Positions 11,413-41,403 of a DNA stretch of 41,844 bases are shown piece by piece (positions within the stretch are counted from its first letter, which is position 1; each line of letters opens with the position of its first letter). This stretch comes from a virus. The translations under genes were made by a program, and so were the position numbers. Location of the stretch: positions 1 through 41,844 of IMG/VR virus record IMGVR_UViG_3300031576_000136; one strand, written 5' to 3'. The notes under the pieces are model-generated. The model did not search any database, was not told the DNA's origin, and saw only the letters and a program-made list of their open reading frames with translations.

Positions 11413-11443
11413 CGGCGGTGCCTTAACGGGTACCGCCGTTTTT
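11413..11443 (+). terminator. Intrinsic terminator after capsid/decoration genes
   Basis: CGGCGGT (11413-11419) pairs with ACCGCCG (11432-11438) and is followed by five T (11439-11443). It is 22 nt after the stop of the decoration-like gene and only 18 nt before the adaptor gene, so it probably attenuates rather than fully stops transcription, giving more capsid than tail mRNA. Confidence 0.8.
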
Positions 11444-15120: not shown

Positions 15121-15606
15121 ATGGGCGCGGCACTTCCAATTATGATGGGAATTAACGCAGTTTCTGAAATTTATAAAGGCGTTCAAGCACGAAATGCGGC
15201 GAATGAAGAAGCCAGCATGCTTGAACAGCAGGGGAATATTCAGCTTCAGGAATCAAGGACTGAGGCCGGATTAATTTCTGCGGAAGCCCAGCGCCGTGCG
15301 AAAGAAATCAGAAAGTTTGCGGCCCGGCAAAAACTTCAATACCTCAAAAACGGCGTGACATTGGAAGGATCCCCGCTTCACGTCCTGGATGAAACATTCG
15401 AGGAAGGCCAAAAGGAAGTGAATCTGGTCCGGCAAAAAGCGCAATTCAGGCTTTTGCAGGGGAACTCACTATATACCCTTCAAAACCAGAAAGCACAGCA
15501 ACAACGCAATCAGGGCAGGGCCGCATTTATTGGCGGATTTCTTAATGCCGCTTCCGGGACGGCCAGCACGTATGCACAATCGAAAGGACTTTTAGGAAAT
15601 GCCTGA
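15121..15606 (+). CDS. Internal virion (ejection) protein, gp14-like
   Basis: A 161-residue protein with the arrangement of podoviral gp14: a short hydrophobic start (AALPIMMGINAVSEIY), a long Gln/Ala/Arg coiled coil (QARNAANEEASMLEQQGN and on), a 'GVTLEGSPLHVLDET' turn and a Gly/Ala-rich C-terminus. gp14-like proteins leave the virion first and form a pore in the outer membrane during DNA entry. It is followed with an 8-nt overlap by the next internal protein. Confidence 0.78.
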   Translation: MGAALPIMMGINAVSEIYKGVQARNAANEEASMLEQQGNIQLQESRTEAGLISAEAQRRAKEIRKFAARQKLQYLKNGVTLEGSPLHVLDETFEEGQKEVNLVRQKAQFRLLQGNSLYTLQNQKAQQQRNQGRAAFIGGFLNAASGTASTYAQSKGLLGNA

Positions 15607-17164
15607 CATCTTTGAACGAAAGCCAGTCTCAACGGAGGTCCCTACCAGCGCCGTAGGTACGCCTGGACCAGATATGTCAGGGGTAAAGATCGCCGAAGCG
15701 TTGGGGGGTGCTGGTGATGCGGCTCTTGATTCAATTATTAAGGTTAGACAATACAAACAAGAGGTTGCAGATACCGCTGCGGCCAACAAAAGAGGTGTTG
15801 AGTTTGACCTCCAAGCCGAGCAAATGAGGCAGCAGATTCACCAGAAATTTCAAGGTAGTGGCCGGCCGATCAACGAAGAAAACGAAGAGCTGCGCGTTTC
15901 TCTCGATAAACTTCACCAGCAAGAAAACGGCAAGATCAAATCAGAAGGGGAGCGCCGCCTTTTCAACACACAAGCTTTGCAGACCATTAAAACACGCCGC
16001 ATGGCCGGATTAAACGCCGCCAATCAAAGGCAGACAGGCGAAGCCTTTAATAACACAATGTCATCAATAAACACAATTTCAAATTCTATCTCCAATATTT
16101 TTGCTCAAACTGATCTTACCGATCAGGAAAAAATGCAAGAGATGGCAATTAAAATTTCGCAAGCGAAGAGCATTTTGGAATCTTCAAAAGGGGTATTGGA
16201 TGGTACAAATTATCAAACATTGAGTAGGGGCATTTCTAAAGCAATACCAAAAGCGGCTGTCTTAGGAGCTATGCAGACCGATCCTAATCTTGCAGAAGCA
16301 TTACTCCACAGCAACGAATTTGATGCGTACCTTAACCCAAAAGAAAAAGAAGAGTTGCTTACAAAGACAAGAACAGTTCAAAAGCAGATGCTTGAATTAT
16401 CAAAGGTTAAACAAGCTGAAGTTGAACGTGATAATTTGATGGCTACCACAAAAGAGTTTTTAAGCGGTGAGTTAACTTTTTCGAAGTTAGAGGAAGCCGT
16501 AACCGGCGGCCAGATCACGCCAGAGGTTGCTGGAGCTTTTGAGGTGGCGTTATTTAATCCAAAAGAGTGGGATGAGTTAAAAGATGACCCTAAATATCAG
16601 GCGGAAAAAGGGTCAGTCCTTGTAAATATGATGCAGGATATGCAGAAGAAAAACGATATCTCAAAAGTCGTCTTGCGGTCTGTGACAGCGTATAACAAAA
16701 AACAGATCGAAACAAAAGATTTGGCTTGGATTCTTAATGCTGCCAATGAAAAGATTAATGACCAAGACAACCCAAAATGGGAGTGGTTAGACCAGGCGGT
16801 TGACGCTGTGTCTCTTGTAGCTGGACCTGCGTCCATTCCAAAATTTGCAACCAGGCTATCGCAAGCTTTCCAATCAATGGGGAATGAGGTTGACCCGCGC
16901 GAAATTGCTAAGGAAGTCATAAAAGACACCGCCAAAACGAATAATCCAGAGCTAGCAGGTTTGAATGATGTCCCAAACGCTAAATTTGAGAGAGGAAAAC
17001 AAAAAGTAGTTTATCCGTGGAACACAGATTTAAAAGCTGATGGCAATGCGTCGGATCAAGGTGATTTTGTAATAGTTCAGTTGCCTAATGGAAAAGTAGG
17101 ACCAATCCCAAAAGAGAAGCTATCCAAAGCCCTTGAGAGGGGCGCGAAGATTGTTCAAGCGTGA
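15599..17164 (+). CDS. Internal virion protein, gp15-like
   Basis: A 521-residue, highly helical, Gln/Lys/Glu-rich protein beginning MPDIFERKPV. Between a gp14-like and a gp16-like protein it occupies the gp15 place of the ejection core; I do not see a diagnostic domain, and the assignment rests on position, composition and length (T7 gp15 is larger, about 750). The N-terminus resembles that of the large protein at 17982 (MPDIEDRKTA). The C-terminal 60 residues form a compact non-helical segment (DFVIVQLPNGKVGPIPKEK), a pattern seen at the ends of other ejection proteins. Confidence 0.7.
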   Translation: MPDIFERKPVSTEVPTSAVGTPGPDMSGVKIAEALGGAGDAALDSIIKVRQYKQEVADTAAANKRGVEFDLQAEQMRQQIHQKFQGSGRPINEENEELRVSLDKLHQQENGKIKSEGERRLFNTQALQTIKTRRMAGLNAANQRQTGEAFNNTMSSINTISNSISNIFAQTDLTDQEKMQEMAIKISQAKSILESSKGVLDGTNYQTLSRGISKAIPKAAVLGAMQTDPNLAEALLHSNEFDAYLNPKEKEELLTKTRTVQKQMLELSKVKQAEVERDNLMATTKEFLSGELTFSKLEEAVTGGQITPEVAGAFEVALFNPKEWDELKDDPKYQAEKGSVLVNMMQDMQKKNDISKVVLRSVTAYNKKQIETKDLAWILNAANEKINDQDNPKWEWLDQAVDAVSLVAGPASIPKFATRLSQAFQSMGNEVDPREIAKEVIKDTAKTNNPELAGLNDVPNAKFERGKQKVVYPWNTDLKADGNASDQGDFVIVQLPNGKVGPIPKEKLSKALERGAKIVQA

Positions 17165-17237: not shown

Positions 17238-17483
17238 TTAATCAATTATGTCAGGCAATTCGATTTGGTTCCCCTCATACAGATATTGAACGTCTGAGAA
17301 ATTTAGAGGCTTCAATTTTGAAGAGTCAAGCGCAACGACGGTTGAGGGCACGTCTTCACCGTCAGGGTTTTCCAACCATTTCAGAACAATATGTGGCGTG
17401 TCTTTGATAAAAACAAGATCGGTGTCACAGTGAAAATATTTTCCATTTTGACATGCGATATGCCTTACTTTGTATTTGACCAT
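17238..17483 (-). CDS. Moron 1, gene 2: hypothetical 81-aa protein
   Basis: A leftward gene with a strong AGGAGG ribosome binding site 7 nt before the ATG at 17483. The product (MVKYKVRHIACQNGKYFHCD...) is a small beta-rich protein with two Cys/His pairs early on and an acidic C-terminus ending LPDIID. It overlaps a rightward 79-codon frame (17168-17407) that lacks such a signal and is rejected. It lies 122 nt downstream of the other leftward gene, so they likely share one transcript. The role is unknown; small leftward insertions in late operons are typical morons. Confidence 0.65.
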   Translation of the reverse strand: MVKYKVRHIACQNGKYFHCDTDLVFIKDTPHIVLKWLENPDGEDVPSTVVALDSSKLKPLNFSDVQYLYEGNQIELPDIID

Positions 17484-17605: not shown

Positions 17606-17854
17606 CTACGATCTGAAAAACCCGAGTTGTTTAAGTTCGACTATACACCGGATCATAGCTTCTTTATGAATCTCAGAAATAGCAAACAACAGAGAAATAA
17701 ATCGTTTGGTAGATTCGTTGCTCTTTTCTCCACGAAAAGAATCTTCAAACCAAACTTCTTCAGCGCCTTTTTTAAAAAATTCATGAAGGTTTAATTTGGA
17801 AAGGTGATCTCGGTAGATTTTTTTGACAAGTTCGATTTCTTTATCATCGCTCAT
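17606..17854 (-). CDS. Moron 1, gene 1: hypothetical 82-aa helical protein
   Basis: ATG at 17854 with CTAGGAG 6 nt upstream. The 82-residue product begins MSDDKEIELVKKIYRDHLSK and is almost wholly helical and charged. It is the first gene behind a canonical extended -10 promoter and a terminator-ended structured leader (17873-17965), so expression probably depends on read-through of that terminator. A rightward frame over 17534-17794 with AAAGGGG upstream overlaps it; I favour the leftward gene because of its protein-like composition and the promoter. Function unknown. Confidence 0.65.
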   Translation of the reverse strand: MSDDKEIELVKKIYRDHLSKLNLHEFFKKGAEEVWFEDSFRGEKSNESTKRFISLLFAISEIHKEAMIRCIVELKQLGFFRS

Positions 17855-17872: not shown

Positions 17873-17965
17873 AAAATAAAAAGCCCCGTGTCAACGGCCA
17901 AGTTAAACACGGGGCGAAAGGGTCAAAGCCCTTTTATAAAACCAGATTGTCCTTGGCCGTTGAAT
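17873..17965 (-). ncRNA. 93-nt terminator-ended RNA or attenuator with 11-bp pseudoknot
   Basis: On the minus strand transcription should start at about 17965, 7 nt past a TATAAT box. The RNA then has CAACGGCCAAG (17962-17952), a hairpin AAAGGG/CCCTTT (17934-17917), and a GC-rich terminator stem GCCCCGTGT/ACACGGGGC (17915-17907 with 17891-17883) followed by TTTTTATTTT (17882-17873). The 15-nt terminator loop contains CTTGGCCGTTG, an exact 11-nt complement of the 5' end, so the RNA can close into a pseudoknot. The next gene starts 18 nt past the U-tract. It could be a small RNA, an attenuator, or both. Confidence 0.6.
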
Positions 17966-17971
17966 AAGAGG

Positions 17972-17977
17972 ATTATA
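17972..17977 (-). promoter_or_regulatory. Extended -10 promoter of moron 1
   Basis: On the minus strand TGCTATAAT gives a perfect -10 (TATAAT) with the TGn extension. The -35 region 17 nt upstream is poor, as expected for extended -10 promoters. It overlaps the ribosome-binding region of the divergent gene at 17982, so use of one may hinder the other. Confidence 0.65.
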
Positions 17978-17981
17978 GCAA

Positions 17982-20900
17982 ATGCCTGATATTGAAGACA
18001 GAAAAACAGCAGTTCTTGATCCTTTAAAAGACGATTTCGCGGACTTGGGGTTTAAGGAAGAGACTCAAAAAACAGCAACGATTGATCCTGTAATTGACCA
18101 CGCAAATGATGACTTCTCCGATCTTGGCTTTGTGGAATCCCCTAAAATTGGTACTCCCACAAAGAAAGTTTTTGTTTCCGAGGCGTCTAAGACTTTAGAA
18201 GTTCCTTCATTTTTTGGCAGCGGCATGATTGGGCATGCCGCCCGTGAAAACTTCTGGCCCGAGCTTCAAAAAACATCTGGTGAGTCATTTAAGGCTGTTG
18301 TCAGGGCAGGTTTAAATACAGCTGAAAGCGTTTCTTCTCTCGCAAAGTTTTTTGGGCAAGACATTGAGAAAGACCCGCAAAAATCAATTGCTTTAAATGT
18401 CGGGTATGGCGCTGATTTGCTAGACTCGTTTATGGGGCGTAAAGACACCAATCCTGTGATAAGGAAGATAGGCCAACACGTTACGGAGCGCGCGGACAGG
18501 CTCATTGATAACTTTGACAAGCTTAAAGATGGTTTCAAAATTGGCGGGCTAGAAATAGCGAAGGCTGATCCTGAAATGTTCGCTGGCTCATTCACTAAAA
18601 ACCCTTCCTGGACACGGGCGGTAGCAACTATTGCGGAAGCTGTACCCTCTCTTGCTACCGCTACAGCTATAACATTTGCCACTAAAAACCCTTTTGCCGG
18701 AGCTGCCGCATTAGGTCTTTTAGAGGGAGCGACAACGCGGGAAGAAGCCTTAGATGCTGGGGCTTCAGTGGATAAGGCAAATACTCTATTCTTTATTTCC
18801 TCCGTTGGAAACACACTTCTTGAAGAGATCCCTTTGGGACGATTCTTAAGGAATAAAAACACAGCTTTGAAAAACATTGCCGAAGGTTTTGTATTTGAGG
18901 GGCTTCAGGAAGGAACGCAACAGGTTTGGCAGAATGCTATCGCTAAGTTCGGTTATGACGAAACAAGAGGTTACTTTGACGGCGTTGTCGAATCCCTCAT
19001 AGCTGGGGCTGGGAGTGGAGGAATTGTTGGGTCTTTGACCTTCGGGGGAGGGAAACAAATTGATAAAGCTGTTGATACCTTAAAGCAAAAAGGCGCGACG
19101 GATGAAGATATTCAAAATCTTCAGAAATCAGCCGTTGAGCATGTCGTTGAAAACGCTGAAATCATTGATAATGCGCTTGATGCAAAAGTGGCAGAAATAG
19201 AGCAAATCGCGAGTCAGGCGAAAGAACAACCAGCTATTGAACCGCCTACTGGACGCGGCGGAATAGTGCCGCCTGAGTTTAATTTTGGGAAGTGGAAAGA
19301 TCAACAGGCGTTTCTTTTGTCGCGCGAAACGATGGAGAGAAACCTTGAGGGTGTTATTAAAGACGAGAAGCAGCTTGTGGAAGCCAAGGAGTTTTTGACC
19401 GAACCAATCAAAGAGAACGAAACCGCTAGGGTTGAATGGATGAATGCGACCCGGTCTTTAATCAAGCAAGAAATGAATCGTTTGGGAATCCGTCACAACT
19501 CCTCGGAAGATAAACTTGTGCAGCGGTATGGCGAAGGAAGGATGACAGAGGGCGAGCTTAAATCCGCTACCCCAAAATGGTCAGCTGTTAAAGAAGCCGC
19601 GGCCTTCTTTAGAAGCCAATACGACGAAATGCTTGATACTGTCAACACGGTTCGTGCTCAGTTTGGTTATGATGAAATCCCCAAAAGGCAAGATTACTTT
19701 AGGCATTTTCAGGAAATTGGATCTTGGATTGATAGTTTTGGCACAATACTGCACGCGGAAGACTTGCCAACAGAAATTTCGGGTATGACGTCAATGTTTA
19801 AGCCGGGCAAGCCGTTTACAACCGCAGAACTTAGAAGGCGCGGCGGGGCTTTCACCGAATCATCAATAGGCGGTATTGATAATTACATTGATGCAATCTC
19901 GAAGCAGATTTTTCATACGGACAGCGTGCAACGCGCAAGAGTCATTGAAAAATACATCCGAACTGCCGGATCTCAAGAGCAAGCTGATTTGCCCAATTTT
20001 GTGGCAAATATTCAAGAGTACGCAAATCTTCTTGCGGGGAAGAAAGGGAGCGTTGATAGAGCCTTTGAATCGTTATCCGGAAGGGAAGTATACGGAGCCG
20101 TTCAAACCATTCACGCGCAAATATCAAAAAATTTAATCAGCGGCAATGTCTCATCAGCTCTTTCTAATCTTATTCCGTTCACTCAGTCTATGTCGACAAC
20201 AAAGAAGGCAGCGGCTGTCAAAGGATTATTCGAGGCAACTTATACCGCATTTCGTGATGATTACGCAGAAATCGACGGACAAAAAAGCAAGTTTCTGACA
20301 AGACGTTTCCCCGATCAGAACATAGCGCTTAGCATATGGCAAAAGTCAGCTGACAAAATTAACTTTCTTTTTAAATCAATTGATAAATTCACGTCGAAAG
20401 CGGTATTGGCAGGGAAGTATTACGAGGGAATTGATAGCGGTCTTTCTGAATCTGAGGCTATGAAAAAAGCGGAGGAATATGCTGGAAAGACGCTTGCGGA
20501 CAGATCCATCGGACAGTTACCAAATTTGTTTGGACAAAAATCCCTTAAAGGATGGACGGCCTTTCAAGTTGAGGTAAATAACCAGGTGTCATTTATGCTT
20601 AAAGATATCCCCAGGCAGTATCACGGGGATGCTTTAAAAGTTGCTTCTGCCTTATTTCAATTTGCCATTTACTCCTTTTTAGCAAACGAAGTGTATGAAA
20701 AAATCTCTGGCAGACGGCCTCAGCTTGATCTTATTTATGCGACGCTCACTCTTTTAGGGATGAATAAATCGGGTGAGAAAAGAACGGGGCTTGAAAGAGT
20801 CTGGCAGGCATTTACTGATATCAGGCAAAATGTTCCCTTCGGCTCTTTTACCACAGGACGAAATTTTACGTCTGCCGCAATGCCAGATATTAAGGGCATT

Positions 20901-21167
20901 ATTACGGGCCGCAAAGATGCTTTATCCGAGTTAAGTAAGACTGGATTATTATTACTTAATCCTTTCGGGGGTGGGTCTCAAATACGTAAGACTATCGAAG
21001 GGCTTAACGAATACGCAAAAGGGGGATCATTTACGTTGAAACGCAAGACTAGAAGGTACCGGATAAATCAGGATTTCCCTAATCTCGTGAGGGGCGCTTT
21101 ATTTGGGAAGTACGCATTCCCTGAAGCAGTTGATTACTACAATAAACCGGAAGGGAAAAGGCGTTAA
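17982..21167 (+). CDS. Large internal virion (ejection) protein, gp16-like
   Basis: A 1061-residue protein, the largest in the virion module, with AGAGGA upstream of its ATG. The N-terminus carries two copies of a DDF(A/S)DLGF motif (residues about 17-24 and 44-51), an arrangement common at the start of phage ejection and polyvalent proteins. Hydrophobic helices lie near residues 205-250 (AVPSLATATAITFATKN..AGAAALGLLEG) and 885-905 (VASALFQFAIYSFLAN), which fit a protein that crosses the inner membrane during DNA delivery. No lytic transglycosylase motif was recognised. The C-terminal 200 residues resemble large polyvalent-associated domains, but I cannot name one with confidence. Confidence 0.75.
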   Translation: MPDIEDRKTAVLDPLKDDFADLGFKEETQKTATIDPVIDHANDDFSDLGFVESPKIGTPTKKVFVSEASKTLEVPSFFGSGMIGHAARENFWPELQKTSGESFKAVVRAGLNTAESVSSLAKFFGQDIEKDPQKSIALNVGYGADLLDSFMGRKDTNPVIRKIGQHVTERADRLIDNFDKLKDGFKIGGLEIAKADPEMFAGSFTKNPSWTRAVATIAEAVPSLATATAITFATKNPFAGAAALGLLEGATTREEALDAGASVDKANTLFFISSVGNTLLEEIPLGRFLRNKNTALKNIAEGFVFEGLQEGTQQVWQNAIAKFGYDETRGYFDGVVESLIAGAGSGGIVGSLTFGGGKQIDKAVDTLKQKGATDEDIQNLQKSAVEHVVENAEIIDNALDAKVAEIEQIASQAKEQPAIEPPTGRGGIVPPEFNFGKWKDQQAFLLSRETMERNLEGVIKDEKQLVEAKEFLTEPIKENETARVEWMNATRSLIKQEMNRLGIRHNSSEDKLVQRYGEGRMTEGELKSATPKWSAVKEAAAFFRSQYDEMLDTVNTVRAQFGYDEIPKRQDYFRHFQEIGSWIDSFGTILHAEDLPTEISGMTSMFKPGKPFTTAELRRRGGAFTESSIGGIDNYIDAISKQIFHTDSVQRARVIEKYIRTAGSQEQADLPNFVANIQEYANLLAGKKGSVDRAFESLSGREVYGAVQTIHAQISKNLISGNVSSALSNLIPFTQSMSTTKKAAAVKGLFEATYTAFRDDYAEIDGQKSKFLTRRFPDQNIALSIWQKSADKINFLFKSIDKFTSKAVLAGKYYEGIDSGLSESEAMKKAEEYAGKTLADRSIGQLPNLFGQKSLKGWTAFQVEVNNQVSFMLKDIPRQYHGDALKVASALFQFAIYSFLANEVYEKISGRRPQLDLIYATLTLLGMNKSGEKRTGLERVWQAFTDIRQNVPFGSFTTGRNFTSAAMPDIKGIITGRKDALSELSKTGLLLLNPFGGGSQIRKTIEGLNEYAKGGSFTLKRKTRRYRINQDFPNLVRGALFGKYAFPEAVDYYNKPEGKRR

Positions 21168-21177
21168 GTCAAATTAA

Positions 21178-21408
21178 TTACGGTGAGTGTATATAACAAG
21201 AAGAAACCGCGAGAATAAAAAAGCAAAATAGCATAGTCCAAACTATGCACATTTTAACCCAATCTGACCAAGGCGCGCTTGAATGTTCAAGCTCCCAACC
21301 GTTATTAAAAAGCCAATTCCAAAAGTAATTAAAGGGCTTCACGTTTCGGCCCCATAAATATAACCAAATACTGAAGAGCCCGATGATAAGAATTAACACT
21401 GAGACCAT
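21178..21408 (-). CDS. Moron 2, gene 5: small membrane protein
   Basis: A 76-residue leftward product with two hydrophobic segments (VSVLILIIGLFSIWLYLWG near the start and MCIVWTMLFCFFILAVSSCY near the end) flanking a tryptophan-rich hydrophilic loop. Its ATG at 21408 sits 3 nt past the upstream stop, with GGGGAGG 11 nt before. It is last in the leftward cassette, 10 nt from the converging stop of the gp16-like gene, with no clear terminator in between. Holin-like or superinfection-exclusion functions are plausible for such proteins but not shown. Confidence 0.6.
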   Translation of the reverse strand: MVSVLILIIGLFSIWLYLWGRNVKPFNYFWNWLFNNGWELEHSSAPWSDWVKMCIVWTMLFCFFILAVSSCYIHSP

Positions 21409-21411
21409 ATC

Positions 21412-21597
21412 TTAAGCGCCTCCCCAACCAAAAATTGAAAGAAAATCAAGGAAGATCCCGCTAAACCAGAAAAGCAATGCCACCATTATAAAACCAAGGA
21501 CAATAGATTTTATGATTACTTCCCACCAGTGGGCATTTTGATCCCAGCCTTCGTGAAAATCAAAAAGCCAGGATAGGAAATCTTTAACCTTGCCCAT
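21412..21597 (-). CDS. Moron 2, gene 4: small tryptophan-rich membrane protein
   Basis: A 61-residue leftward protein starting MGKVKDFLSWLFDFHEGWDQ, with a membrane helix from about residue 27 to 52 (VIIKSIVLGFIMVALLFWF). GGAGG lies 6 nt before the ATG at 21597. It shares the Trp-rich soluble part and membrane-helix layout of the following gene, so the two may act together. No family recognised. Confidence 0.6.
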   Translation of the reverse strand: MGKVKDFLSWLFDFHEGWDQNAHWWEVIIKSIVLGFIMVALLFWFSGIFLDFLSIFGWGGA

Positions 21598-21609
21598 TGA
21601 GAGCCTCCG

Positions 21610-21939
21610 CTATCTACGCGATCTTATCCGATCCAGCTCCTGCTGCTGATAATAGTTTGCTTGTTGCCTATTCTGAAACACATAGTCATCATACTCTTTG
21701 AGGAGATTGTTTTTTAATGTTAAATACTCACCTTGACTGATCGAACCGCTTTTGTAGGCGTCCTCGGCCTCTTGCAGCCGATGCGTTATCTCTTCACCCT
21801 TATTTTTTTGATTCTCCATAAGTTGATCTAACTGAGCATCTAAAATTGGTGATGGGTTCGCAGTTACAGCACATCCAGGAACAAGGGTAACGCAGATAAT
21901 CAAGCAAACTACAATTGAGCACCCCACGAGTTTATTCAT
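21610..21939 (-). CDS. Moron 2, gene 3: phage-encoded lipoprotein
   Basis: A 109-residue protein with a lipoprotein signal: MNKLVGCSIVVCLIICVT then the lipobox LVPGC, giving an N-terminal acylated Cys at residue 23. The mature part is a short Asn/Pro linker and a charged helix with 'SGSISQGEYLTLKNNL', a short SHOCT-like element. Phage lipoproteins made in lysogens, such as T5 Llp or streptococcal phage Ltp, block superinfecting phage; this is the natural hypothesis but is untested. Its start codon lies inside a perfect inverted repeat (21932-21953). Confidence 0.7.
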   Translation of the reverse strand: MNKLVGCSIVVCLIICVTLVPGCAVTANPSPILDAQLDQLMENQKNKGEEITHRLQEAEDAYKSGSISQGEYLTLKNNLLKEYDDYVFQNRQQANYYQQQELDRIRSRR

Positions 21940-21953
21940 TCCGTAATGAATAA
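21932..21953. promoter_or_regulatory. Operator-like inverted repeat over the lipoprotein start
   Basis: TTATTCATT (21932-21940) and AATGAATAA (21945-21953) are perfect 9-bp arms separated by CCGT. The start codon of the leftward lipoprotein gene (21937-21939) is inside one arm. As RNA it would hide the start in a hairpin; as DNA it is a dyad suited to a dimeric repressor. Confidence 0.5.
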
Positions 21954-21986
21954 TAACCTCAGAAACTTAATTTGCGGGGAATTAAC

Positions 21987-22283
21987 TTAATATTTTTCTG
22001 CTTGTTCTGATTTTTCGTCAAGCTCTAACCCGAATGGGGCTGGATCAATATCGAAGGCTTTGCAGACCATGCGGATTGTTGACCATTGAATGCGTTCATC
22101 TCGTGAAGCGAAGAGAAGCGGGTAGTATTGTTCTTTAGACGCAACTGTTTTGCATAAGTAAAGGATTTGGCCTCGCCCTGGGGCAATTTGGTTTTGTGAT
22201 GTCTTGACGGTAATTCCGACTTCTTTTAGGCGGCTAAGGAACTCGTCAAACTTCGGGGCTTGGTGAAAGGGGTAGGCCGCCAT
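21987..22283 (-). CDS. Moron 2, gene 2: possible HicA-like protein
   Basis: A 98-residue protein with a helix (FDEFLSRLKEVGI), beta strands in the middle and a helix-plus-tail TIRMVCKAFDIDPAPF. That layout, next to a HicB-like gene, resembles HicA mRNA interferases (dsRBD-like fold). However, the conserved catalytic His and 'GSHH' loop of HicA are not visible, so a divergent or non-toxic relative is as likely. Its ATG follows the HicB-like stop by 2 nt (translational coupling). Order antitoxin-then-toxin is less usual for hicAB but known. Confidence 0.4.
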   Translation of the reverse strand: MAAYPFHQAPKFDEFLSRLKEVGITVKTSQNQIAPGRGQILYLCKTVASKEQYYPLLFASRDERIQWSTIRMVCKAFDIDPAPFGLELDEKSEQAEKY

Positions 22284-22285
22284 GA

Positions 22286-22627
22286 TTAAACGCTCTGAAG
22301 TTCGTAATGCTGGGGTAAATTAGCGTGCTCTGACCAATCGCATTCAGGCCAAGTGATGAGCATTCGGTTGCAAAAATTACGGTCAGCGTTTTCCCATTGC
22401 CGCCAATATTCAATTGGCGCAGGTTCGAGATTAGAGAAAGGTTCTTCGCCATGCTCTTTGGAAAGCAGGGCAAACGCTTTCAACATATTCTCAAATCTCT
22501 CCTTCAGCGCTAGCATTGTCTTGGCTTGAACCGCAAAGCCATAATCCAGGCAAATAGCGACGTAATAATCACCTTCTGGAAGAACCAGGACTTTAATGTC
22601 TTTGCTGTCTTCTATCGATGTGGTCAT
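22286..22627 (-). CDS. Moron 2, gene 1: possible HicB-like protein
   Basis: ATG at 22627 is chosen because AAAGGAGAG lies 5 nt upstream; a longer frame reaches 22699 but would include the promoter. The 113-residue product contains KVLVLPEGDYYVAICLDYG followed by a helix ALKERFENMLKAF, which is the partial RNase H-like layout of HicB antitoxins ('eGgyvA.cPelg...A...'). The DNA-binding C-terminal domain of many HicB proteins is replaced here by a Trp-rich segment. Assignment is tentative and rests on fold pattern and the neighbour. Confidence 0.4.
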   Translation of the reverse strand: MTTSIEDSKDIKVLVLPEGDYYVAICLDYGFAVQAKTMLALKERFENMLKAFALLSKEHGEEPFSNLEPAPIEYWRQWENADRNFCNRMLITWPECDWSEHANLPQHYELQSV

Positions 22628-22662
22628 ATTCTCTCCTTTGGAGGGGATTCTTTCCGATGTCA

Positions 22663-22692
22663 ATATTAACCCCCTATGATAACGACTGTCAA
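22663..22692 (-). promoter_or_regulatory. Sigma-70 promoter of moron 2
   Basis: On the minus strand TTGACA (22692-22687) and TAATAT (22668-22663) are separated by 18 nt, about 36-41 nt before the HicB-like start. It differs from the late promoter elements and looks host-recognised, so this cassette can be active in the lysogen. It points away from the tail-fibre promoter at 22727. Confidence 0.65.
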
Positions 22693-22726
22693 TGTGCATT
22701 TCTTGATTCTATCCGCAAAATAAAAA

Positions 22727-22771: not shown

Positions 22772-22872
22772 CCCCTGATTGATCCCCAGGGGCAAACCAA
22801 AGAGTAAGACCTTTCGCGAAAGGCAGTTACCGCATGGCTTCAGGCCATAAGCTGGTAGCTGCCTTTCTTTTT
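22772..22872 (+). promoter_or_regulatory. Terminator/anti-terminator leader of the tail fibre gene
   Basis: Three structures follow each other: CCCCTG/CAGGGG (22772-22792); a perfect 14-bp palindrome CCTTTCGCGAAAGG (22810-22823); and a strong stem AAAGGCAGTTACC/GGTAGCTGCCTTT (22819-22831 with 22854-22866) with an inner ATGGC/GCCAT hairpin and a CTTTTT tract (22867-22872). The palindrome shares AAAGG with the 5' arm of the terminator, so the two are mutually exclusive. The U-tract ends 13 nt before the start codon. This is the layout of a transcription attenuator. Confidence 0.55.
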
Positions 22873-30935: not shown

Positions 30936-31182
30936 GGACTGGCTCATAAAAAAAGTGGTAATGGATTGGCTAAAAAAACAAAAGGAGACTCCAATGTTTA
31001 AATTACTTGAAGGCAAAAAGACGTACATCACGATGGCGATAATCGCTATTTTAGGCGCACTCGACGCATACAACGGGCATTGTGTGGCAACTTCGCTTTG
31101 TAAGGCGTTTGCCGTGCCGGGCTGGATATTCTCGATTCTTGCGGCGTTGGGTGTTTACACAAGGGCGATTGCTAAAAAATGA
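30925..31182 (+). CDS. Holin-like membrane protein with two possible starts
   Basis: The 85-residue version starts at 30925; a shorter 62-residue version starts at ATG 30994 with a much better AAAGGAG ribosome binding site. The sequence after the second start, MFKLLEGKKTYITMAIIAIL and GWIFSILAALGVYTRAIAK, has two membrane helices separated by a short loop containing two cysteines. 'LEGKKTYI' followed by two membrane helices is a familiar phage holin-type pattern. The longer form adds a basic amphipathic helix. It overlaps the metacaspase gene by ATGA, where a phage endolysin gene would normally stand. Confidence 0.6.
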   Translation: MSLRDWLIKKVVMDWLKKQKETPMFKLLEGKKTYITMAIIAILGALDAYNGHCVATSLCKAFAVPGWIFSILAALGVYTRAIAKK

Positions 31183-32042
31183 AGAAACTATATCTTGGCG
31201 TTGGAATTAATGCCTATGCACAGTCTCCGCTTCGGGGGTGCGTGAACGATATTCAAGACCTGTTTAAATTTTTAGTAGAGCAATACGCTTTCAAGCCCGG
31301 CGATAATATGCGGCTTTTGCTAAATGAACGTGCTACTACTCAGACTATTCGGGATCGCATGGATTGGATGCGAGACAAAGCGCAAAGGGATGATATCTGT
31401 GCATTTCAGGATTCAAGCCACGGAAGCCAAGTCCCAACAAGAAGCGACTCGGGGGAAGTGGACGGCATGGACGAGATCATCTGCCCGTATGATTTTAATT
31501 GGGATGGGAACTACATCACGGATAATGAGATAGGCCAGTGGGTAGTAGACATTCGCTCAAAAGGAGCCTTCCCGATTGTTATTATCGATGCCTGCCACAG
31601 CGGGACAATTACCAGAAACTTTGGGCTTCCCTTTGACATTCAGCCCATATTTTTTGAGCCAGTGGATTTGCCGGATGACCTGCGGATTAAATACGGATTC
31701 AAGATTTCAATCCCCTGGGGCGTGCGATACCTTGCGCCGCCGCTTGATATTATGGCGCGAATGACGGAAGGATTAAGACCGCGAAAATCAGAAAGCATTT
31801 ACGGCGCAGTTATTTCAGGCTGTCAGGACAACCAGACTTCCGCAGACGCATATATTGACGGACGATTTAACGGAGCCATGACGCGCTGCCTGATTGACAT
31901 TCTCGCAAATGATGTTGACAAAAAATTTACCTGGGGCGATTTAAACACATTGCTACAGCACAAAGTCAAAGCGAGAAACTTCTCTCAAATTCCGCAGGTC
32001 GTTTTTGAAGACGGCGAAGAAAATAGACTGCTTTTTAATTAG
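31179..32042 (+). CDS. Caspase-like (metacaspase, C14) protease in prophage lysis position
   Basis: A 287-residue protein with the caspase p20 fold landmarks: KLYLGVGINAY, RGCVNDIQDLFKFLVE, the catalytic His in DSSHGSQ (His81), and the catalytic Cys in VIIDACHSGT (Cys139). DEIICPYDFNWDG between them is the metacaspase-type loop. Metacaspases cleave after Arg or Lys, often Ca-dependent. No signal peptide or extra domain is visible, so it should act in the cytoplasm. It is translationally coupled to a holin-like gene and is last before a terminator. It could process virion or host proteins, aid lysis, or trigger cell death. Confidence 0.88.
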   Translation: MKKLYLGVGINAYAQSPLRGCVNDIQDLFKFLVEQYAFKPGDNMRLLLNERATTQTIRDRMDWMRDKAQRDDICAFQDSSHGSQVPTRSDSGEVDGMDEIICPYDFNWDGNYITDNEIGQWVVDIRSKGAFPIVIIDACHSGTITRNFGLPFDIQPIFFEPVDLPDDLRIKYGFKISIPWGVRYLAPPLDIMARMTEGLRPRKSESIYGAVISGCQDNQTSADAYIDGRFNGAMTRCLIDILANDVDKKFTWGDLNTLLQHKVKARNFSQIPQVVFEDGEENRLLFN

Positions 32043-33560: not shown

Positions 33561-33637
33561 GCCCCGGTAGCTCAATTGGTTAGAGTACCAGATTGTCGAT
33601 CTGGGTGTTGCGGGTTCAAGTCCCGTCCGGGGCGCCA
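33561..33637 (+). tRNA. tRNA-Asp (anticodon GTC)
   Basis: Full cloverleaf with acceptor GCCCCGG/CCGGGGC, D arm around AATTGGTTA, anticodon stem CCAGA/TCTGG with loop TTGTCGA (anticodon GTC at 33595-33597), T arm GCGGG/CCCGT with TTCAAGT, discriminator G and encoded CCA (33635-33637). The gene is intact. The 190 nt before it (33368-33560) hold no supported gene; the run after it to 33814 is also empty apart from small hairpins. Confidence 0.98.
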
Positions 33638-33814
33638 TTCTTTTTGAAATCGTTTAAGTTCAGATCTCCCGCAGTCAAGTATTGTGCCCCGTGATTCGCC
33701 CCGCGATTGAGATGTAACCTGTTGCAATGAATGATGTTAAAGTGTGATTCGATAATTTTTGGAGAAACGCAGCAGTTTCTAACTCCTTCTAAAAAGACAG
33801 GGCATTTTGAATAA

Positions 33815-36076
33815 ATGACAACCCTCTGTTATATTTTGAGTAACCACTGCTTGGCGGGGATGATACGGGTAAATCCTGATCTTTTTTTCAAGGTGTATTA
33901 CGAGCCTATTTGCGAGCGGCTGCAACCGAAAGATATTATGCTGAACCGAGAAAAAACAGGGCGGAAACAAAAAACACTGGCAAAAGCGACCCGCAAATTA
34001 TCGGATTACGTCACTATTAAAGAAAGTCTCTCCCCAACACAGACACAACCTCCCCGGACTATGTTTAGGTCAGTAACAATTTTGATTCTGGCAATCGTTA
34101 TGTCAGCAGGATATCTATTTTTGTCGGGCCAGGATCAGGCGTTCGCGCAGCCGCAAGGCGCGCAGGGCGCTGGGGATCCGGAAATCAAAAAATTGGGAGA
34201 GGCGATCACTCAACTTCACGAGGAGCGTCAAAAACTTTTGGGAGCGTGGCCGGGTACCGCCCCCAACCCAAAACGACGCGAAGAATTAAGGGCGAAATTA
34301 AATGAAAATGGTGCGGCGCTTAAAGCAAAACTCGATACTTTGTTGACTATGCTTTATGAGAAAAAACAAGCGTGTGAGAAAGCTGTCCAGGAGTCTGCGA
34401 ATCAGCGTGAGGAGTTAACCAAACAGTATCAACAGCAGTTAGTAGATTTAAAAACAAGGGCGGCGACGTTAAATGTTCAACTGAGAGACCCGAAATTAAC
34501 GCTAAAGGAAAAACAAAAAATTCTTGATGAGATAAAGAACATGCCGGCAAAATGGGACCAGTTAACTAAAGAAAAGCAAAAAAAAGAACAAGAAATCAAA
34601 GTGCAACTGGAAAAAGACCAGGAAGCTTTAAAAAAGGATCTAAGTTGCCAGAAACTTTTGACGCAATATACGAAGTACCTCGTCTATTATAAAAGCGTAT
34701 TTATAACCGTATGGACACCAAAACCTCCTGAGAAAATGACCAAAAAAGAAGAAGAACCCCTATACTTCACCTCTTATACACCTTCGCCTGAGAGCGACGG
34801 AGGGTGCAGTACGAAAAATCCCTGTCCCACGGGCCAGTGCTGCGTGTTTAAGGGCGGGAAATATGAATGCATCGCGCTTGAATGTACCGCATCGATCTCA
34901 GGCACAGGGGACATCAAGCTCAAAGTTGACGACAAGACCCTCCGGCCGTTCTTGGCAGAAAAAGGAGGATCCTCGCAGTCTGTGGAAATTCCGCCAGAAC
35001 TGCTTACCGCCGCATGTAAGTATGGCAATAGCCAAGCTTCCTCCGCAAGTTCAACGTCTGCAAGCCCGGACGAGCCGCCGAGTTCACTGACAAGTTCAAT
35101 GAACATAAGCCAGATCGACCCTACGGAATTAACTTATTCGATCCCAGGAGAATCGAGCTATGCAAGTCAATGCAAAGATGCTTATGTGCAAATCAATTGT
35201 AATTGCCCGCCAAGTGATCCGATCCCCGCGAGCTCAGGCACAACAATGCCACCTAAGGATTGCCCCTTAAAGACTCAAGTGGAAATCAAATGCCCCTGCT
35301 GTGAAGAGTTGGGGTATGTTGACCCGACAGACCCTGATGTAGAAAGGAAACTGAACGAAAAGTGCCGGTTGGATAGTTCTTCCAGCGAAAGTGATCCAAT
35401 CCCCGGAGGATGCTACAGGAAAGTGACAATTAATCTTAAAGATACGCCCCTGAACGGCGAAGGCCAACTGGAGTGCCTTGAATGCGCAAAAAGGGAGTAT
35501 GAATGCTGCGACTACAAGACAGGGCCGATCACGGCGGCTAAGTCCACGGATGAGATTGAATATAAAATTGAAACAATGGCCAATGCGGTGCGTGCGCAGG
35601 GGAGCAGCGGTCTAAGAGGACAGGCTTGCCTGGGCGGGTGTTATGAAAAGAAGGATGACAAGTGCGGTTGGTACTGCCCTAAAGGGACAACGACCGTCGG
35701 TCCCGCACTTTATCAGAGGGATTTGGATACACGCTATTGCTGTGCGTGTCTTGGACTTAACACAAAGTGCCAGTCGGACAAGGGGCTGAAAGAATGTTCA
35801 ACCGCGCAACAGAGTAATGACTTGCAGGATATGGGATGTGAATGCGTAGACAAGAATCTATATTGCACCGACCGGCCATTGAATAGTATTGCAGGATATG
35901 AACAACACGTCCCGGTTGTTTCAGGCAACATGGTTGTTCGAAAGGGATTTGAACCCGGGAAAGGTATCTGTGCCTGTGGGCTTTGCGACACAACGGTTTG
36001 TGGCACGCGCCTTTTAAGCAGCACGTTTAATAAACAGCAGTGCCATCCGATTATTAGGGCAGAGGCAAGGGAATGA
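33815..36076 (+). CDS. Host cysteine-rich secreted protein (753 aa)
   Basis: A large secreted protein of unknown family. A signal/anchor segment (FRSVTILILAIVMSAGYLFL, ending AFAQ) occurs at residues about 83-113, preceded by an 82-residue extension; ATG at 34061 may be the true start, though neither has a clear ribosome binding site. Residues 120-300 are coiled coil, and 325-750 are Cys-rich with many CC, CxC and CxxC motifs (GQCCVF, CPCCEE, YCCACLG), indicating a disulphide-rich extracellular domain. It overlaps the 1776-aa gene by ATGA, so the two products are made together and probably act as a pair at the cell surface. Confidence 0.75.
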   Translation: MTTLCYILSNHCLAGMIRVNPDLFFKVYYEPICERLQPKDIMLNREKTGRKQKTLAKATRKLSDYVTIKESLSPTQTQPPRTMFRSVTILILAIVMSAGYLFLSGQDQAFAQPQGAQGAGDPEIKKLGEAITQLHEERQKLLGAWPGTAPNPKRREELRAKLNENGAALKAKLDTLLTMLYEKKQACEKAVQESANQREELTKQYQQQLVDLKTRAATLNVQLRDPKLTLKEKQKILDEIKNMPAKWDQLTKEKQKKEQEIKVQLEKDQEALKKDLSCQKLLTQYTKYLVYYKSVFITVWTPKPPEKMTKKEEEPLYFTSYTPSPESDGGCSTKNPCPTGQCCVFKGGKYECIALECTASISGTGDIKLKVDDKTLRPFLAEKGGSSQSVEIPPELLTAACKYGNSQASSASSTSASPDEPPSSLTSSMNISQIDPTELTYSIPGESSYASQCKDAYVQINCNCPPSDPIPASSGTTMPPKDCPLKTQVEIKCPCCEELGYVDPTDPDVERKLNEKCRLDSSSSESDPIPGGCYRKVTINLKDTPLNGEGQLECLECAKREYECCDYKTGPITAAKSTDEIEYKIETMANAVRAQGSSGLRGQACLGGCYEKKDDKCGWYCPKGTTTVGPALYQRDLDTRYCCACLGLNTKCQSDKGLKECSTAQQSNDLQDMGCECVDKNLYCTDRPLNSIAGYEQHVPVVSGNMVVRKGFEPGKGICACGLCDTTVCGTRLLSSTFNKQQCHPIIRAEARE

Positions 36077-39000
36077 AAAAGATGAAAAGCGGTAAAAAAA
36101 TGGAGCCACGCGAGCTTTCCCGCGGTACCTTACTTGTCGGCGGAATCCGCCGAAGCAAACAACCCTCCTTCGCCAAGGCTACGGAGGGTCCGTCCTTCGC
36201 ATTCGCCCCCGGGCAAGCCCGGGGTCTTCTGCGTAGGCGGATAATGGCGGTGATTTTAGCGCTCGCGCTGGCCGTTCAGCCCGCGGCTCCCGGGATCCTT
36301 TATGCCGATATAATCAAATCCCAGGAAATATCGCCCAAAAAGGATAAAACATCTGCTGAAGGTCTGCCGTCTGAAACTCCAGCGCCTTCGCCCCTCGATT
36401 TAATTTTTAAACCTCAAAGCCCGGTTTCGTCCACCGCTAGTAGGGAGGTCAATAAACTTGAGCTCATTTTCTTGCCCGGCGGTTCTGTAGCGAATTTCCT
36501 CAAAAAAGACAGCCCCGGCACGCCGCTTATCTCCACGAGACAGAAACTTCCTCAAATATGCAGCGCCGTCTTAGAACCTTTTTGTTGTTTGGTAAAGGTG
36601 ATTACGCTAACTTCTGTTTGCACTCCCCCCGCAGCGCCTAGTGTTTATGATGATAAAGTCAATAAATTAATTCATGAACTATTAGAGATTCACGGTAAGT
36701 TTTTATCGGGTGAGATTGATGATTATAAGTTCGAAGAACAGGTCGCCAAATTAGAATGGAAAATCAAAAACTGGGAAAAACATCGGGGAGATATATTGAG
36801 TCCGGAAACCAAAGCAACATTAGCCATGTTGCGTCAATCGCTTGTTGCCACTCGTTGGAATGCCATTATGAGCAAAAGAGTTCCCTATGGTGCAACCTAT
36901 ACTCCAGAACAATTGGGAATTACCACTCTGCCTCCGGGGACGAAAATGGAATTCGGTTTAGCCGAAGCGGGGGGAAAGAAATATGACGGTTTTTGGTACC
37001 TTATTCCCGGAAAAGCCCCTGCATTTAAAAGCCATGATGGAAAATTACAGATTGAAAAAGTTAAAGGTCCGGATGGAAAGCTTTTGTTTACGCGTCAAAT
37101 TCTTAAGTCATCCCCTTCTTCGCCACCCGAAATTACAATTATCATGCCGGATGGCAGTTCGCGTAAATTTGTGAATCCCCACGTCATGGAACTTAGGGAT
37201 AAAAATGGAACTTTAAAGGGGTATCAGGTTTCGCCAGAATCCATGCAGAAACTTGAAGAGACGCAGCGCAAAAATCGAAGAGCAAGCGAAAAGTTTAACG
37301 GTGTCCTTCTGCAATATGGATTGTCAAAAAAGCCGGAGGACAAAGCAAAGATAGATCAAGCAAGGTCTGAAGCGGAGAAAACTCAAAAGGAAGCTGATGA
37401 AGAACAAAAAAAGCTTGTTAGTGAAATTGCTAACAGTTTGGTGAATGGTGTGCCATCTCTGAAAAATCTTGACCCTGCAACTTTGATGAACTTTCTTAAT
37501 CAATGGGTAGAAGATGGTAATCCTAAAGACACCCGTCAGCCTTCAAGAAATATGCAATTAAATATTGAAACAAACGGAAAAATTCAAGCTTTCGATCAAT
37601 TTTACACAGGGTCGAGAATAGGGCGCGCAGGTGACCCAGTTCGTGCAGATCGGAGTTACAGACTTTCACCGGGTACAGCTTCAAATGGAAAACAGGCTTT
37701 GATTGTTTATCAGCCCATCATGGTGGCAACTAACGGTATGGATAAAGGGAAACGAATTTCACGAGGAGACATGCCGCTTGCGGGCGCCTCAGATGGAGAT
37801 GAATTTAAACGTCACATAGAATACATTGGAAATAACGAACGATTGTATTGGGATGAAGAAGAAGAATATATCCCCGCCAGCAAGTGGAATCCTTTTTCGT
37901 CCTCATCGACAAAAATTCATACGACTCTCAGATATCAAAGGTGGAATCCAAAAACCGGGCGATGGGAAGATGATCCTAATAAACCCGCGGAACGTAAACC
38001 GGAAAGAACAGTTGATCATGAAGGAAGTTCCGAGGCCTCAAAATGGCTGCGTGCTGCCGGCGATGCACCCGGCATTAAACAGCTTCATGAATATGCATTG
38101 GGCCCATTGGGAAGTAAAGCACGATTAATGTTTCCTGGAACCGCTAATTTGATTTGCGGAGAAGTGAAGTCCGATGAATTGGTGAGTGGCGCTCACTTAA
38201 TCATGGCGGATATTTATGAATTTAGGGATGAGTGGTATTCTGCCATGAATTCTAAGGATCCAAACAGAATTGCTGAGGCGAGGAAGGCCGCTTTGGAATA
38301 TATAAAACAATTAAGAAGTCGGGAAGGCAAAACGGATAAAAAACTGGAACGAAATTTTTGGAAACTGATCGCTTTGGAAGAAATGATTCGCATTGAACGC
38401 GGCAGAAAATGGAAGGCGGGGATGGCCGGCGCCGGGTGGACAAAAGAGCAAGAAGAAGAGATGAAAAAAAGAATGGGGGAAAAGGAATTTTATGACTACC
38501 TAAGGAAAGTGCAACAGGAGACGGAGATTAAGGATGTCACGGATGAAGAACTGGTAAATTTTATTCTTGAAGGTGATATACGAGGCAGTACGATGGTGGC
38601 TGACTATGCAGAGATGAAAGGAGGAGGTTTTTGTTTAGAAACTCTTGTCGTTGTTACAAAAGCCGGCGAGGTGGTCATTGATAATCTTCCGACCCTTGTT
38701 CTTTTTCATGCATTTGGCGCTTTGGGTCAATCTATGTCAGCTGCTCGATGTCCGGCAATAGCTATACCTGGCACTGCGCTCGCTTCAACAAATACCGTAT
38801 TAGGTTTTTATTTTATGACTTCCTTTGGAGCAGAAGGGGCCCAGGCTTTTAACGACGCTATGCGAGCCTATGCCAGAGGTGATAAGACAAAATATCTCGA
38901 CAAATTGGGTGAATTAGCAGGGAGTGCCGCGCTTATGGGTGGAATGCTTCTACCGAAAGGAGGAAAACATATATTGGAACGTTTTAAAGATTTCGAAACA

Positions 39001-41403
39001 GAACGAATCAAAAATGGTGAAAGACTTATTACGGTCGAGGGAAAGCTTAGCCCTGAGGCGCAAAAGAAATTAACCCCTAAGGAAATCGAGAAGTTAAAGG
39101 CAGAAAAGGTTGAGCTTGAGAAAAAAATGGATGAGGTCAATAAAGGGTTAAATTCGCTGACCGAAGAAGTGTTGAAAATTCAGAACGAGATGCTTAAAAA
39201 ACAGCAGGAAGCTAAGCCTTGTCCATGCCCCGAAGGTACCGCAGGGAAACTCACACCTGAAATGGAAGCTCTCAAGGAAACAAAGCAGCGCGAGGCAAAA
39301 ACCATAAGTGATCAGGCTAAAGAAGCGGCCGAAACCGGCAACAAAAGCAAACTTGAGCAAGTGAAAGAAAAATGCCGTGCCTTAAAAGAGAAGCAAACAG
39401 GAAAAACTTCCCCTGGGCCTGAAACGCAGCCGAGTCAAGCGCCCAAAAGGCCAACCCCTTCACTGGAAAAACTGCGGGAAGTCGTTCCTTGGGAGGAGGC
39501 AAGGCGTTTTCAGACTGACGCCGAACCTATGCCCGGCATCGGTACTCCGGGAAGATATTGGGTCAGTATGTATTATGTCCGTTTCAAATTTATGGAATGG
39601 TTTCAAAGCTTTAAAAATAATCCAGAGGGTTTTACGTTTGCCGATTATCTTGCGATGATGAGAGAGCTCCATAAACAATCGGCATATCGCACGGAGGGTA
39701 TTACACGGCCAGGGAAATTTCTTCATGAGTCGAGAACGCGTGCAGATATTGCTGCAAAGTTTAACCAACTTAATGAAGGTAAAGGAGGTCTGGAAGCTGC
39801 AAAGATTTTGGAAAAGAAGGACGGTATCCATGTTGATAAAAGCAATCCTGTGGAATGGATAGATACCAAAACAGGAGAAAAAAAAGTTGATTACCCCTAT
39901 TTGGACCCTAGCAAATATAATCCTGTAGATTACGGGTTGAAGCAGGGCGAGCCCATTCCCTTTTATCTGGAATATCAAAGAAGGGCTTTTAAACATCTTC
40001 AGAAATATGGCAGGATGCTCAAAGATTCTAAAGTCGATTCACAAGCGCTTATGCAACAATTAGCAGAGGTTAACAGGAATATGGCACAAGGGAATCTGTT
40101 TTTTACGCCAAATGCTTCGATCCATATGAACATGATTAATGGCATGCTGCGTGATTTAGGTGGCCGTGGAATTCGACATGAACGATTGGATCTTGATGCC
40201 ATGTCCAGCGAAATTGATATTTATTATAAAAACTTCTTGCGTATGATCCAAGAAGCGAATCCCCAGGGTATTCAACCGTCGAGACCGGGGAGGCCTCAGA
40301 TGCCATCTTTACCTTTCGAAATTACCTTTGAGCCGGAAATCCGGCCGGGGCTATGCAAGCCCGAATTGGCGACTACTACAACGCCTCCCCCTGCGACCAC
40401 AACAACACCCACGACGCCTCCGGCCCGAAGTGAAATGACTCCAAAGGAGCGGTCTCGCCAACAGCAAGAAAACGAGCGGTTGAGACTGGAAAATGAGCGG
40501 AAGGAGTATGAGCAGGATCTACGAGAGATGGAAGAAAAACGCAGGAATAATCTTAATGACCGAAGTTTAGATGGATTGATTAAAGAAGTTCAGAGGCGTC
40601 TTAATGAAGCCAACAGACAATTGCAGGAGATGGGGGATTTACAGCGGAGGCATGAATTAGAGCAACAGCGGACGGCGTTGGCTGATCAACTGAACAATTT
40701 GATTTATCAATGGCAGGAGGCAAGCCCTCAAAACAAGCCCGGCCTTCAAAAGATGATTGATAAACTAAGGGGGCAACTCGACAAGATTGATCTAGATATA
40801 GATTCTCTTTGGAATCGTGAAAGTATAAGGCGTACAGAAGAAACCCGTGAGAATATAATGGAAAATATTGAAGCTGCCAGAGAAAATTTAGAGGCCTCTC
40901 GAAAAGATAGGGATAACTCTGTGGTTGAAGGGGCGCGGCAACGACTTGAAAGACATATGGAAAATCTGCGAGATTATATTGAAAGAGCCGAAGATACACT
41001 AAGAGATGTTGATCGACAGTTAGCCGACCTGAGAAAACCGAGAGAACAACCGGCTGCAGGAGGGCCGGATATGAACACATTGCGTGAAAAACGGAGTCAA
41101 AATAACCAAAAGATACGAGAAATACTTAATCGTCTAGATGCTTTAAGGGATGACTTTGCGGCAAGCTCGCCAAAACCATGGAATCAGTTCTATAATGATT
41201 TTTTGGAGAGGAATCCAAGAGCTACACCTCAAGAGGCTGAGAAAGCATGGACCGATCAGCAAAGGGAAGTCCAGAAAAAATATGAAAGGTATTTTAGAGA
41301 AAAGGAAAGTTCTAATAAAGAGTTGGACAGGTTAAAGAAAGAAGAAGAACGTTTAATTGAACAAATACGCAGGCTTAGCCTAAGACTGCAGCAGCAGCAG
41401 TAG
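36073..41403 (+). CDS. Host giant secreted coiled-coil protein (1776 aa)
   Basis: A very large protein of unknown function. Residues 1-57 are encoded by palindromic repeat DNA and precede a signal peptide (RRRIMAVILALALAVQPAAPG, residues about 54-78), so the true start may be later (ATG 36244). The middle has lysine-rich helical and globular segments, one small membrane-like region near 865-925 (LPTLVLFHAFGALG ... STNTVLGFYFM), a Cys-bearing linker, and a Pro/Thr hinge (TTTTPPPATTTT) near 1435. From 1460 to the end it is coiled coil, finishing in QQQQ encoded by CAG repeats. It is coupled to the cysteine-rich gene upstream. Possibly a surface or contact-dependent effector; no toxin domain was recognised. 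Confidence 0.75.
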   Translation: MKKMKSGKKMEPRELSRGTLLVGGIRRSKQPSFAKATEGPSFAFAPGQARGLLRRRIMAVILALALAVQPAAPGILYADIIKSQEISPKKDKTSAEGLPSETPAPSPLDLIFKPQSPVSSTASREVNKLELIFLPGGSVANFLKKDSPGTPLISTRQKLPQICSAVLEPFCCLVKVITLTSVCTPPAAPSVYDDKVNKLIHELLEIHGKFLSGEIDDYKFEEQVAKLEWKIKNWEKHRGDILSPETKATLAMLRQSLVATRWNAIMSKRVPYGATYTPEQLGITTLPPGTKMEFGLAEAGGKKYDGFWYLIPGKAPAFKSHDGKLQIEKVKGPDGKLLFTRQILKSSPSSPPEITIIMPDGSSRKFVNPHVMELRDKNGTLKGYQVSPESMQKLEETQRKNRRASEKFNGVLLQYGLSKKPEDKAKIDQARSEAEKTQKEADEEQKKLVSEIANSLVNGVPSLKNLDPATLMNFLNQWVEDGNPKDTRQPSRNMQLNIETNGKIQAFDQFYTGSRIGRAGDPVRADRSYRLSPGTASNGKQALIVYQPIMVATNGMDKGKRISRGDMPLAGASDGDEFKRHIEYIGNNERLYWDEEEEYIPASKWNPFSSSSTKIHTTLRYQRWNPKTGRWEDDPNKPAERKPERTVDHEGSSEASKWLRAAGDAPGIKQLHEYALGPLGSKARLMFPGTANLICGEVKSDELVSGAHLIMADIYEFRDEWYSAMNSKDPNRIAEARKAALEYIKQLRSREGKTDKKLERNFWKLIALEEMIRIERGRKWKAGMAGAGWTKEQEEEMKKRMGEKEFYDYLRKVQQETEIKDVTDEELVNFILEGDIRGSTMVADYAEMKGGGFCLETLVVVTKAGEVVIDNLPTLVLFHAFGALGQSMSAARCPAIAIPGTALASTNTVLGFYFMTSFGAEGAQAFNDAMRAYARGDKTKYLDKLGELAGSAALMGGMLLPKGGKHILERFKDFETERIKNGERLITVEGKLSPEAQKKLTPKEIEKLKAEKVELEKKMDEVNKGLNSLTEEVLKIQNEMLKKQQEAKPCPCPEGTAGKLTPEMEALKETKQREAKTISDQAKEAAETGNKSKLEQVKEKCRALKEKQTGKTSPGPETQPSQAPKRPTPSLEKLREVVPWEEARRFQTDAEPMPGIGTPGRYWVSMYYVRFKFMEWFQSFKNNPEGFTFADYLAMMRELHKQSAYRTEGITRPGKFLHESRTRADIAAKFNQLNEGKGGLEAAKILEKKDGIHVDKSNPVEWIDTKTGEKKVDYPYLDPSKYNPVDYGLKQGEPIPFYLEYQRRAFKHLQKYGRMLKDSKVDSQALMQQLAEVNRNMAQGNLFFTPNASIHMNMINGMLRDLGGRGIRHERLDLDAMSSEIDIYYKNFLRMIQEANPQGIQPSRPGRPQMPSLPFEITFEPEIRPGLCKPELATTTTPPPATTTTPTTPPARSEMTPKERSRQQQENERLRLENERKEYEQDLREMEEKRRNNLNDRSLDGLIKEVQRRLNEANRQLQEMGDLQRRHELEQQRTALADQLNNLIYQWQEASPQNKPGLQKMIDKLRGQLDKIDLDIDSLWNRESIRRTEETRENIMENIEAARENLEASRKDRDNSVVEGARQRLERHMENLRDYIERAEDTLRDVDRQLADLRKPREQPAAGGPDMNTLREKRSQNNQKIREILNRLDALRDDFAASSPKPWNQFYNDFLERNPRATPQEAEKAWTDQQREVQKKYERYFREKESSNKELDRLKKEEERLIEQIRRLSLRLQQQQ
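36137..36224 (+). repeat. Cluster of three palindromic elements in the coding sequence
   Basis: TCGGCGG-AAT-CCGCCGA (36137-36153), ACCCTCC...GGAGGGT (36162-36189) and CCCCGGGC-AA-GCCCGGGG (36207-36224) follow each other within 90 nt in frame. The second gives the peptide PSFAKATEGPS. The N-terminal 'FAKATEG' peptide is one I associate with dispersed palindromic repeats in candidate-phylum genomes, similar in principle to Rickettsia palindromic elements. Confidence 0.7.

Follow-up and report, generated by a model that had tools for sequence, protein, structure and literature searches.

A 93-nt leader stands at the head of a two-gene inverted moron in a temperate phage, and its RNA is predicted to have two almost equally stable folds, a terminator and a structure that would block it. 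Because of these two folds, the leader is probably a switch, with the genes being read part of the time. More specifically, it could be a cis-acting transcription attenuator, forming the 5' leader of the moron (17978 down to 17238, minus strand). We regard this reading as an even bet. Against it speaks that it stands on one sequence, for which no homologue, and hence no covariation, was found.

The window, that is, the whole stretch of DNA that was analysed (41,844 nucleotides), is a 41.8-kb virus record of IMG/VR. It is that of a temperate phage, and its genes include those for terminase, head-tail adaptor, major head, tail and integrase. The anatomy of the leader, its competing folds, the insertion of the cassette and the coding character of its genes come from the sequence or from computation. 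On the minus strand, the unit begins with a putative extended -10 promoter element, TGCTATAAT (17970-17978), which is a perfect match. The exact TGNTATAAT occurs once in the window, for a chance expectation of about 1, and no good -35 box for this promoter was found by eye. From the position of the -10 box, the transcript is expected to start near 17965. The 5' end of the RNA is made of arm A (UCAACGGCCAAG, 17952-17963), which is one half of a perfect inverted repeat; the other half, arm A' (CUUGGCCGUUGA, 17891-17902), is complementary to it over 12 bp (100%), at a distance of 49 nt. Folding places a middle hairpin, AAAGGG/CCCUUU, at about 17917-17934, and this hairpin is present in both conformers. 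The terminator is composed of a 5' arm B (GCCCCGTGT in the DNA, GCCCCGUGU in the RNA, 17907-17915, seen in sequence and folding), a loop of 15 nt (TTAACTTGGCCGTTG, 17892-17906) and a 3' arm B' (ACACGGGGC, 17883-17891) which forms a 9-bp stem with arm B and is followed by the U-tract TTTTTATTTT (17873-17882).

The sequence-only reading had already described the promoter box, the start, the 9-bp terminator, the U-tract and the third hairpin on the minus strand, and all are found where it put them. It had also described an exact complementarity of 11 bases between the 5' end of the RNA and the terminator loop. Eleven nucleotides of A' do lie inside the loop, but the repeat is really 12 bp long and its twelfth position overlaps the stem.

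Both the sequence and a terminator scan show that the intrinsic terminator sits between the putative promoter and the first gene. The end of the U-tract is about 18 nt from the start codon of this gene, with a Shine-Dalgarno sequence in between. As this gap is too short to hold another promoter, expression of the gene from here would require read-through from the TGCTATAAT promoter, as had been claimed. A leader peptide was considered and rejected: by eye, no start codon in the leader is preceded by a ribosome binding site. An invertible DNA switch or a protein operator was also rejected: each arm occurs once, neither is a palindrome in itself, the two lie 49 bp apart, and nothing speaks in favour of such a switch or operator.

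The first gene of the cassette (17606-17854, minus strand) encodes a protein of 82 aa and has the Shine-Dalgarno sequence AGGAG at about 17866-17862; the second (17238-17483, minus strand) encodes 81 aa and has AGGAGG. With the phage's own statistics, their codon scores are +10.8 and +10.6, respectively, compared to -3.9 and -4.0 for the overlapping plus-strand reading frames. The 82-aa protein has no match in Pfam, NCBIfam, PHROG or PADLOC and belongs to no toxin or defence family found in these searches; a family search with the 81-aa protein gave no match. Single-sequence structure models are of low confidence for both proteins, the 82-aa protein being predicted all-helical. The cassette has a promoter-like box and, at its head, a terminator; none was seen after 17238.

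The cassette is flanked by a 521-aa gene (15599-17164) and by a 1061-aa gene (17982-21167, plus strand). Distant relatives were gathered through three proteins, namely terminase, head-tail adaptor and major head (the last 49-66% identical), and 13 of their records have a clean gene pair at this locus. In 13/13, the counterpart of the 521-aa gene abuts the next gene, which codes for over 1000 aa, the gap measuring -11 to +8 nt, whereas 817 bp separate the two genes in the window and are occupied by the inverted cassette. This supports the earlier identification of the cassette as a moron. The 521-aa protein matches the relatives' set in a profile comparison with a probability of 97.4%; the 1061-aa gene has the same position as the relatives' downstream gene, with unclear sequence similarity (probability 14%). 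Apparent inverted cassettes in the relatives L120, L126 and L185 were artefacts of loci ending inside the long gene, and the genes abut in the full sequences.

The A:A' helix, in its nested form, has 12 bp and four more pairs (GACA:UGUU), in which the 3' part of arm B, UGU(U), pairs with GACA. The helix competes with the terminator because this form reaches into the terminator 5' arm. The nascent transcript was folded at successive lengths, assuming that 13 nt are hidden in the polymerase, and A:A' is predicted as soon as the loop segment emerges, ahead of the 3' arm (P 0.97-0.99). Once the 3' arm is out, the predicted energies, calculated without pseudoknots, are -30.1 kcal/mol for the antiterminator and -30.5 kcal/mol for the terminator. 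The antiterminator conformer (76 nt) has a z of -5.04, none of 200 shuffles being as strong, and, once corrected for GC, 5 of the 4398 stretches of equal size in the window reach so low a score. The folding gain of the leader is matched by 11 of 5000 shuffled leaders. The prediction thus contains a rival helix of similar stability that can form first, as expected of an attenuator. It would exclude the terminator only partially, because part of the 5' arm remains unpaired. The antiterminator may even fail to block termination, since the terminator's outer GC pairs, which are strong, are compatible with a standing A:A' and could form beside it.

Transcription, the efficiency of termination, switching and its signal are inferred. 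In the proposed mechanism, arm A, the first bases of the RNA, would capture A', the future terminator loop, as the polymerase leaves the promoter, and four further pairs, up to the end of the terminator 5' arm, would complete the antiterminator. The emergence of the 3' arm would then start a strand displacement towards the terminator, which is almost isoenergetic. Should the terminator prevail, the 93-nt RNA would be released; if the antiterminator holds, the polymerase would continue into the 82-aa and 81-aa genes. The balance might be shifted by the rate of elongation or pausing, by a protein or ligand bound to the leader, or by pairing with a second copy or with an antisense late transcript. 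No sensor domain was recognised in the leader. There is a slight chance that the leader is a compact phage switch of a new class, in which the 5' end takes the terminator loop, either in a nested helix or in a pseudoknot, and a ligand, a protein or an RNA sets whether the small RNA or the moron proteins are made in the lysogen.

A plain leaky terminator, which lowers the expression of the moron, would also account for the layout, the loop complement then being a coincidence or the relic of a local templated-repeat mutation. Two other strong intrinsic terminators of the window, at 11413-11438 (plus strand, TTTTTGCTTAGGAG) and 22818-22867 (plus strand, TTTTTGGATAGGAG), have a U-tract that continues directly into the ribosome binding site of the gene that follows, and terminators equivalent to the former occur at this head-tail junction in the relatives L112, L113 and L115. 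Thus, leaky terminators before genes are normal in this phage. Moreover, a perfect 12-bp inverted repeat with a gap of at most 100 is expected 0.43 times somewhere in the window (30 shuffles) and is therefore unremarkable by itself. The position of the complement argues against coincidence, however: its 11 nt fall exactly between the transcript start and the loop, and an exact 11-nt match of the terminator loop to its own leader was found in 20 of 200,000 dinucleotide shuffles. The leaders of the two other terminators have no such complement, and their folding gain is modest in one case (15/1000 shuffles) and absent in the other (448/1000). Among 76 other terminators from phage contigs, whose loops are no shorter than 8 nt, the longest upstream complement is 8, with one exception of 10, so that the moron leader ranks top of the 77. 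Even if one considers that a phage has several strong terminators, the loop match is unlikely to be due to chance, but it is a single case and was chosen by eye. We regard the plain leaky terminator as rather unlikely.

The sequence-only reading was a pseudoknot between the 5' end and the terminator loop, folded at the same time as the terminator stem, which would sense a state or a ligand. The complementarity, over 11 or 12 bp, does exist, but the pairing does not require a pseudoknot; the nested antiterminator fits better, as it wins additional pairs with the 5' arm, and the antiterminator/terminator pair is a better reading than a static pseudoknot. The sequence permits a pseudoknot, and the summed helix energies (-20.5 and -17.6) could pay for it. 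However, A' passes into the 3' arm without an intervening base, and just four separate it from the 5' arm; these 4 nt (UUAA) would have to bridge about 29 Å (28.6 Å), the deep groove of 11 bp, which is just reachable. A full pseudoknot alongside the terminator is therefore of marginal steric feasibility; a shorter pseudoknot could form, perhaps as an intermediate of the strand displacement. With no ligand-binding core recognised and no Rfam match, the pseudoknotted sensor is quite improbable. It is also unlikely that the 93-nt RNA is a small RNA acting in trans, with the terminator loop or the 5' end as its seed, the read-through being incidental or its mRNA being the target, as for IsrK. The distance of 93 nt between promoter and terminator and the stable fold of the whole RNA (z -2.94) would suit such a molecule, and IsrK is a precedent in a prophage (PMC4825925), but no target was found, the window has about as many near-matches to the arm as chance predicts (17, compared to 12.9 expected), and the two candidate seeds are mutually complementary and can mask each other. 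A unit of the type III toxin-antitoxin kind, in which the RNA neutralises the protein encoded past the terminator, is very improbable. The order of elements known for such systems (promoter, pseudoknotted RNA, terminator, toxin gene, as in ToxIN; PMC8860590) resembles that of the moron, but its leader has no tandem or direct repeats, and the helical 82-aa protein (a low-confidence prediction) has no match to ToxN, CptN, TenpN or any other toxin or defence family.

The attenuator reading agrees with the general class of transcription attenuators in that two rival helices precede the first gene, the terminator leading to a short RNA and the antiterminator to read-through. It differs in that the extreme 5' end pairs here mainly with the terminator loop, and partly with the 5' arm, and in that no leader peptide, T-box or known aptamer was recognised. 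In the late leader of phage lambda (PR'-tR'), a short RNA is produced by termination just past a phage promoter, and the genes are reached via antitermination by the Q protein. The moron leader would be similar in its short terminated RNA and antitermination; no Q-like protein or site was identified here. The closest prophage parallel in layout is IsrK of the Salmonella prophage Gifsy-1, where a promoter gives a short terminated RNA and a read-through mRNA of the downstream genes, with alternative structures (PMC4825925). The short form of IsrK has been shown to act in trans on translation (PMC4825925); this trans action belongs to IsrK, and the resemblance is one of layout, not of sequence. 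The ZTP (pfl) riboswitch is the closest case of upstream pairings, including a pseudoknot, which are displaced strand by strand as the terminator forms (PMC10085676). The ZTP riboswitch has a conserved aptamer, whereas the moron leader has one long perfect helix instead, and Rfam yields no pfl match for it even when E values as high as 10 are allowed.

No sequence relation of the leader to IsrK, ZTP or type III systems was found. The kind of switch is already known, but the moron leader is without detectable relative. The usual picture of a moron is a simple promoter-gene-terminator unit that remains on in lysogens. If the leader is a balanced two-state terminator, phage cargo can bring its own built-in attenuator, and this would be a compact natural case of strand-displacement control. 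An attenuator-type, two-state leader heading a moron is plausible, on the strength of one sequence; its general importance is unproven, since it concerns one leader from one uncultured phage, with relatives not detected.

The search of Rfam 15 gave nothing for the leader, in agreement with the earlier statement that it belongs to no known RNA class. Over the window, a tRNA is the only match above the gathering threshold, and the best sub-threshold match in the leader region has 21.2 bits for a cut-off of 65. No homologue of the leader, or of either protein of the cassette, was found by DNA search, by exact search for the arm motif, via the 1061-aa protein, via the 82-aa or 81-aa protein in the collections searched, or with covariance models over 27 related records and 38 sources. 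A search with 17 nt of loop and stem returned two matches, both in unrelated sequence without a terminator. Erwinia phage Caitlin gave a weak match to the 82-aa protein (E 0.07), which was not accepted. The 1061-aa protein is 29% identical to part of a reading frame of ~1986 aa in a human gut phage record; the match to MT835607, which covers part of the protein and lies inside a reading frame of that length, was rejected.

The element had also been proposed to control the gene at 17982 in the rightward direction. The inverted repeat is present in the rightward transcript as well, but this holds for any inverted repeat, as both strands fold alike. There is no U-tract that way, which rejects a rightward terminator, and the RNA at the start of the 1061-aa gene, around its ribosome binding site, folds no more strongly than shuffles (z +0.85). 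Control in both directions thus has no support.

Residues 280-535 of the 1061-aa protein weakly match a virion RNA polymerase PHROG (E 4.3e-8). Between this gene and the tail fibre gene lies a second inverted cassette (21178-22699, minus strand) of at most five small genes, including a predicted lipoprotein gene (21610-21939); a family search with these genes gave no match. In the relatives, unlike in the window, the tail fibre gene lies near the large gene. At the other end of the phage, a tRNA-Asp lies just beyond the integrase gene, and the window ends past it (33561-41403 region, plus strand). This stretch, which is probably host sequence at the attachment site, contains reading frames of 753 aa (cysteine-rich) and then 1776 aa, neither with a Pfam match. 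Near the integrase end of the prophage, a gene at 31179-32042 (plus strand) encodes a caspase-domain protein (Peptidase_C14, E 5e-24).
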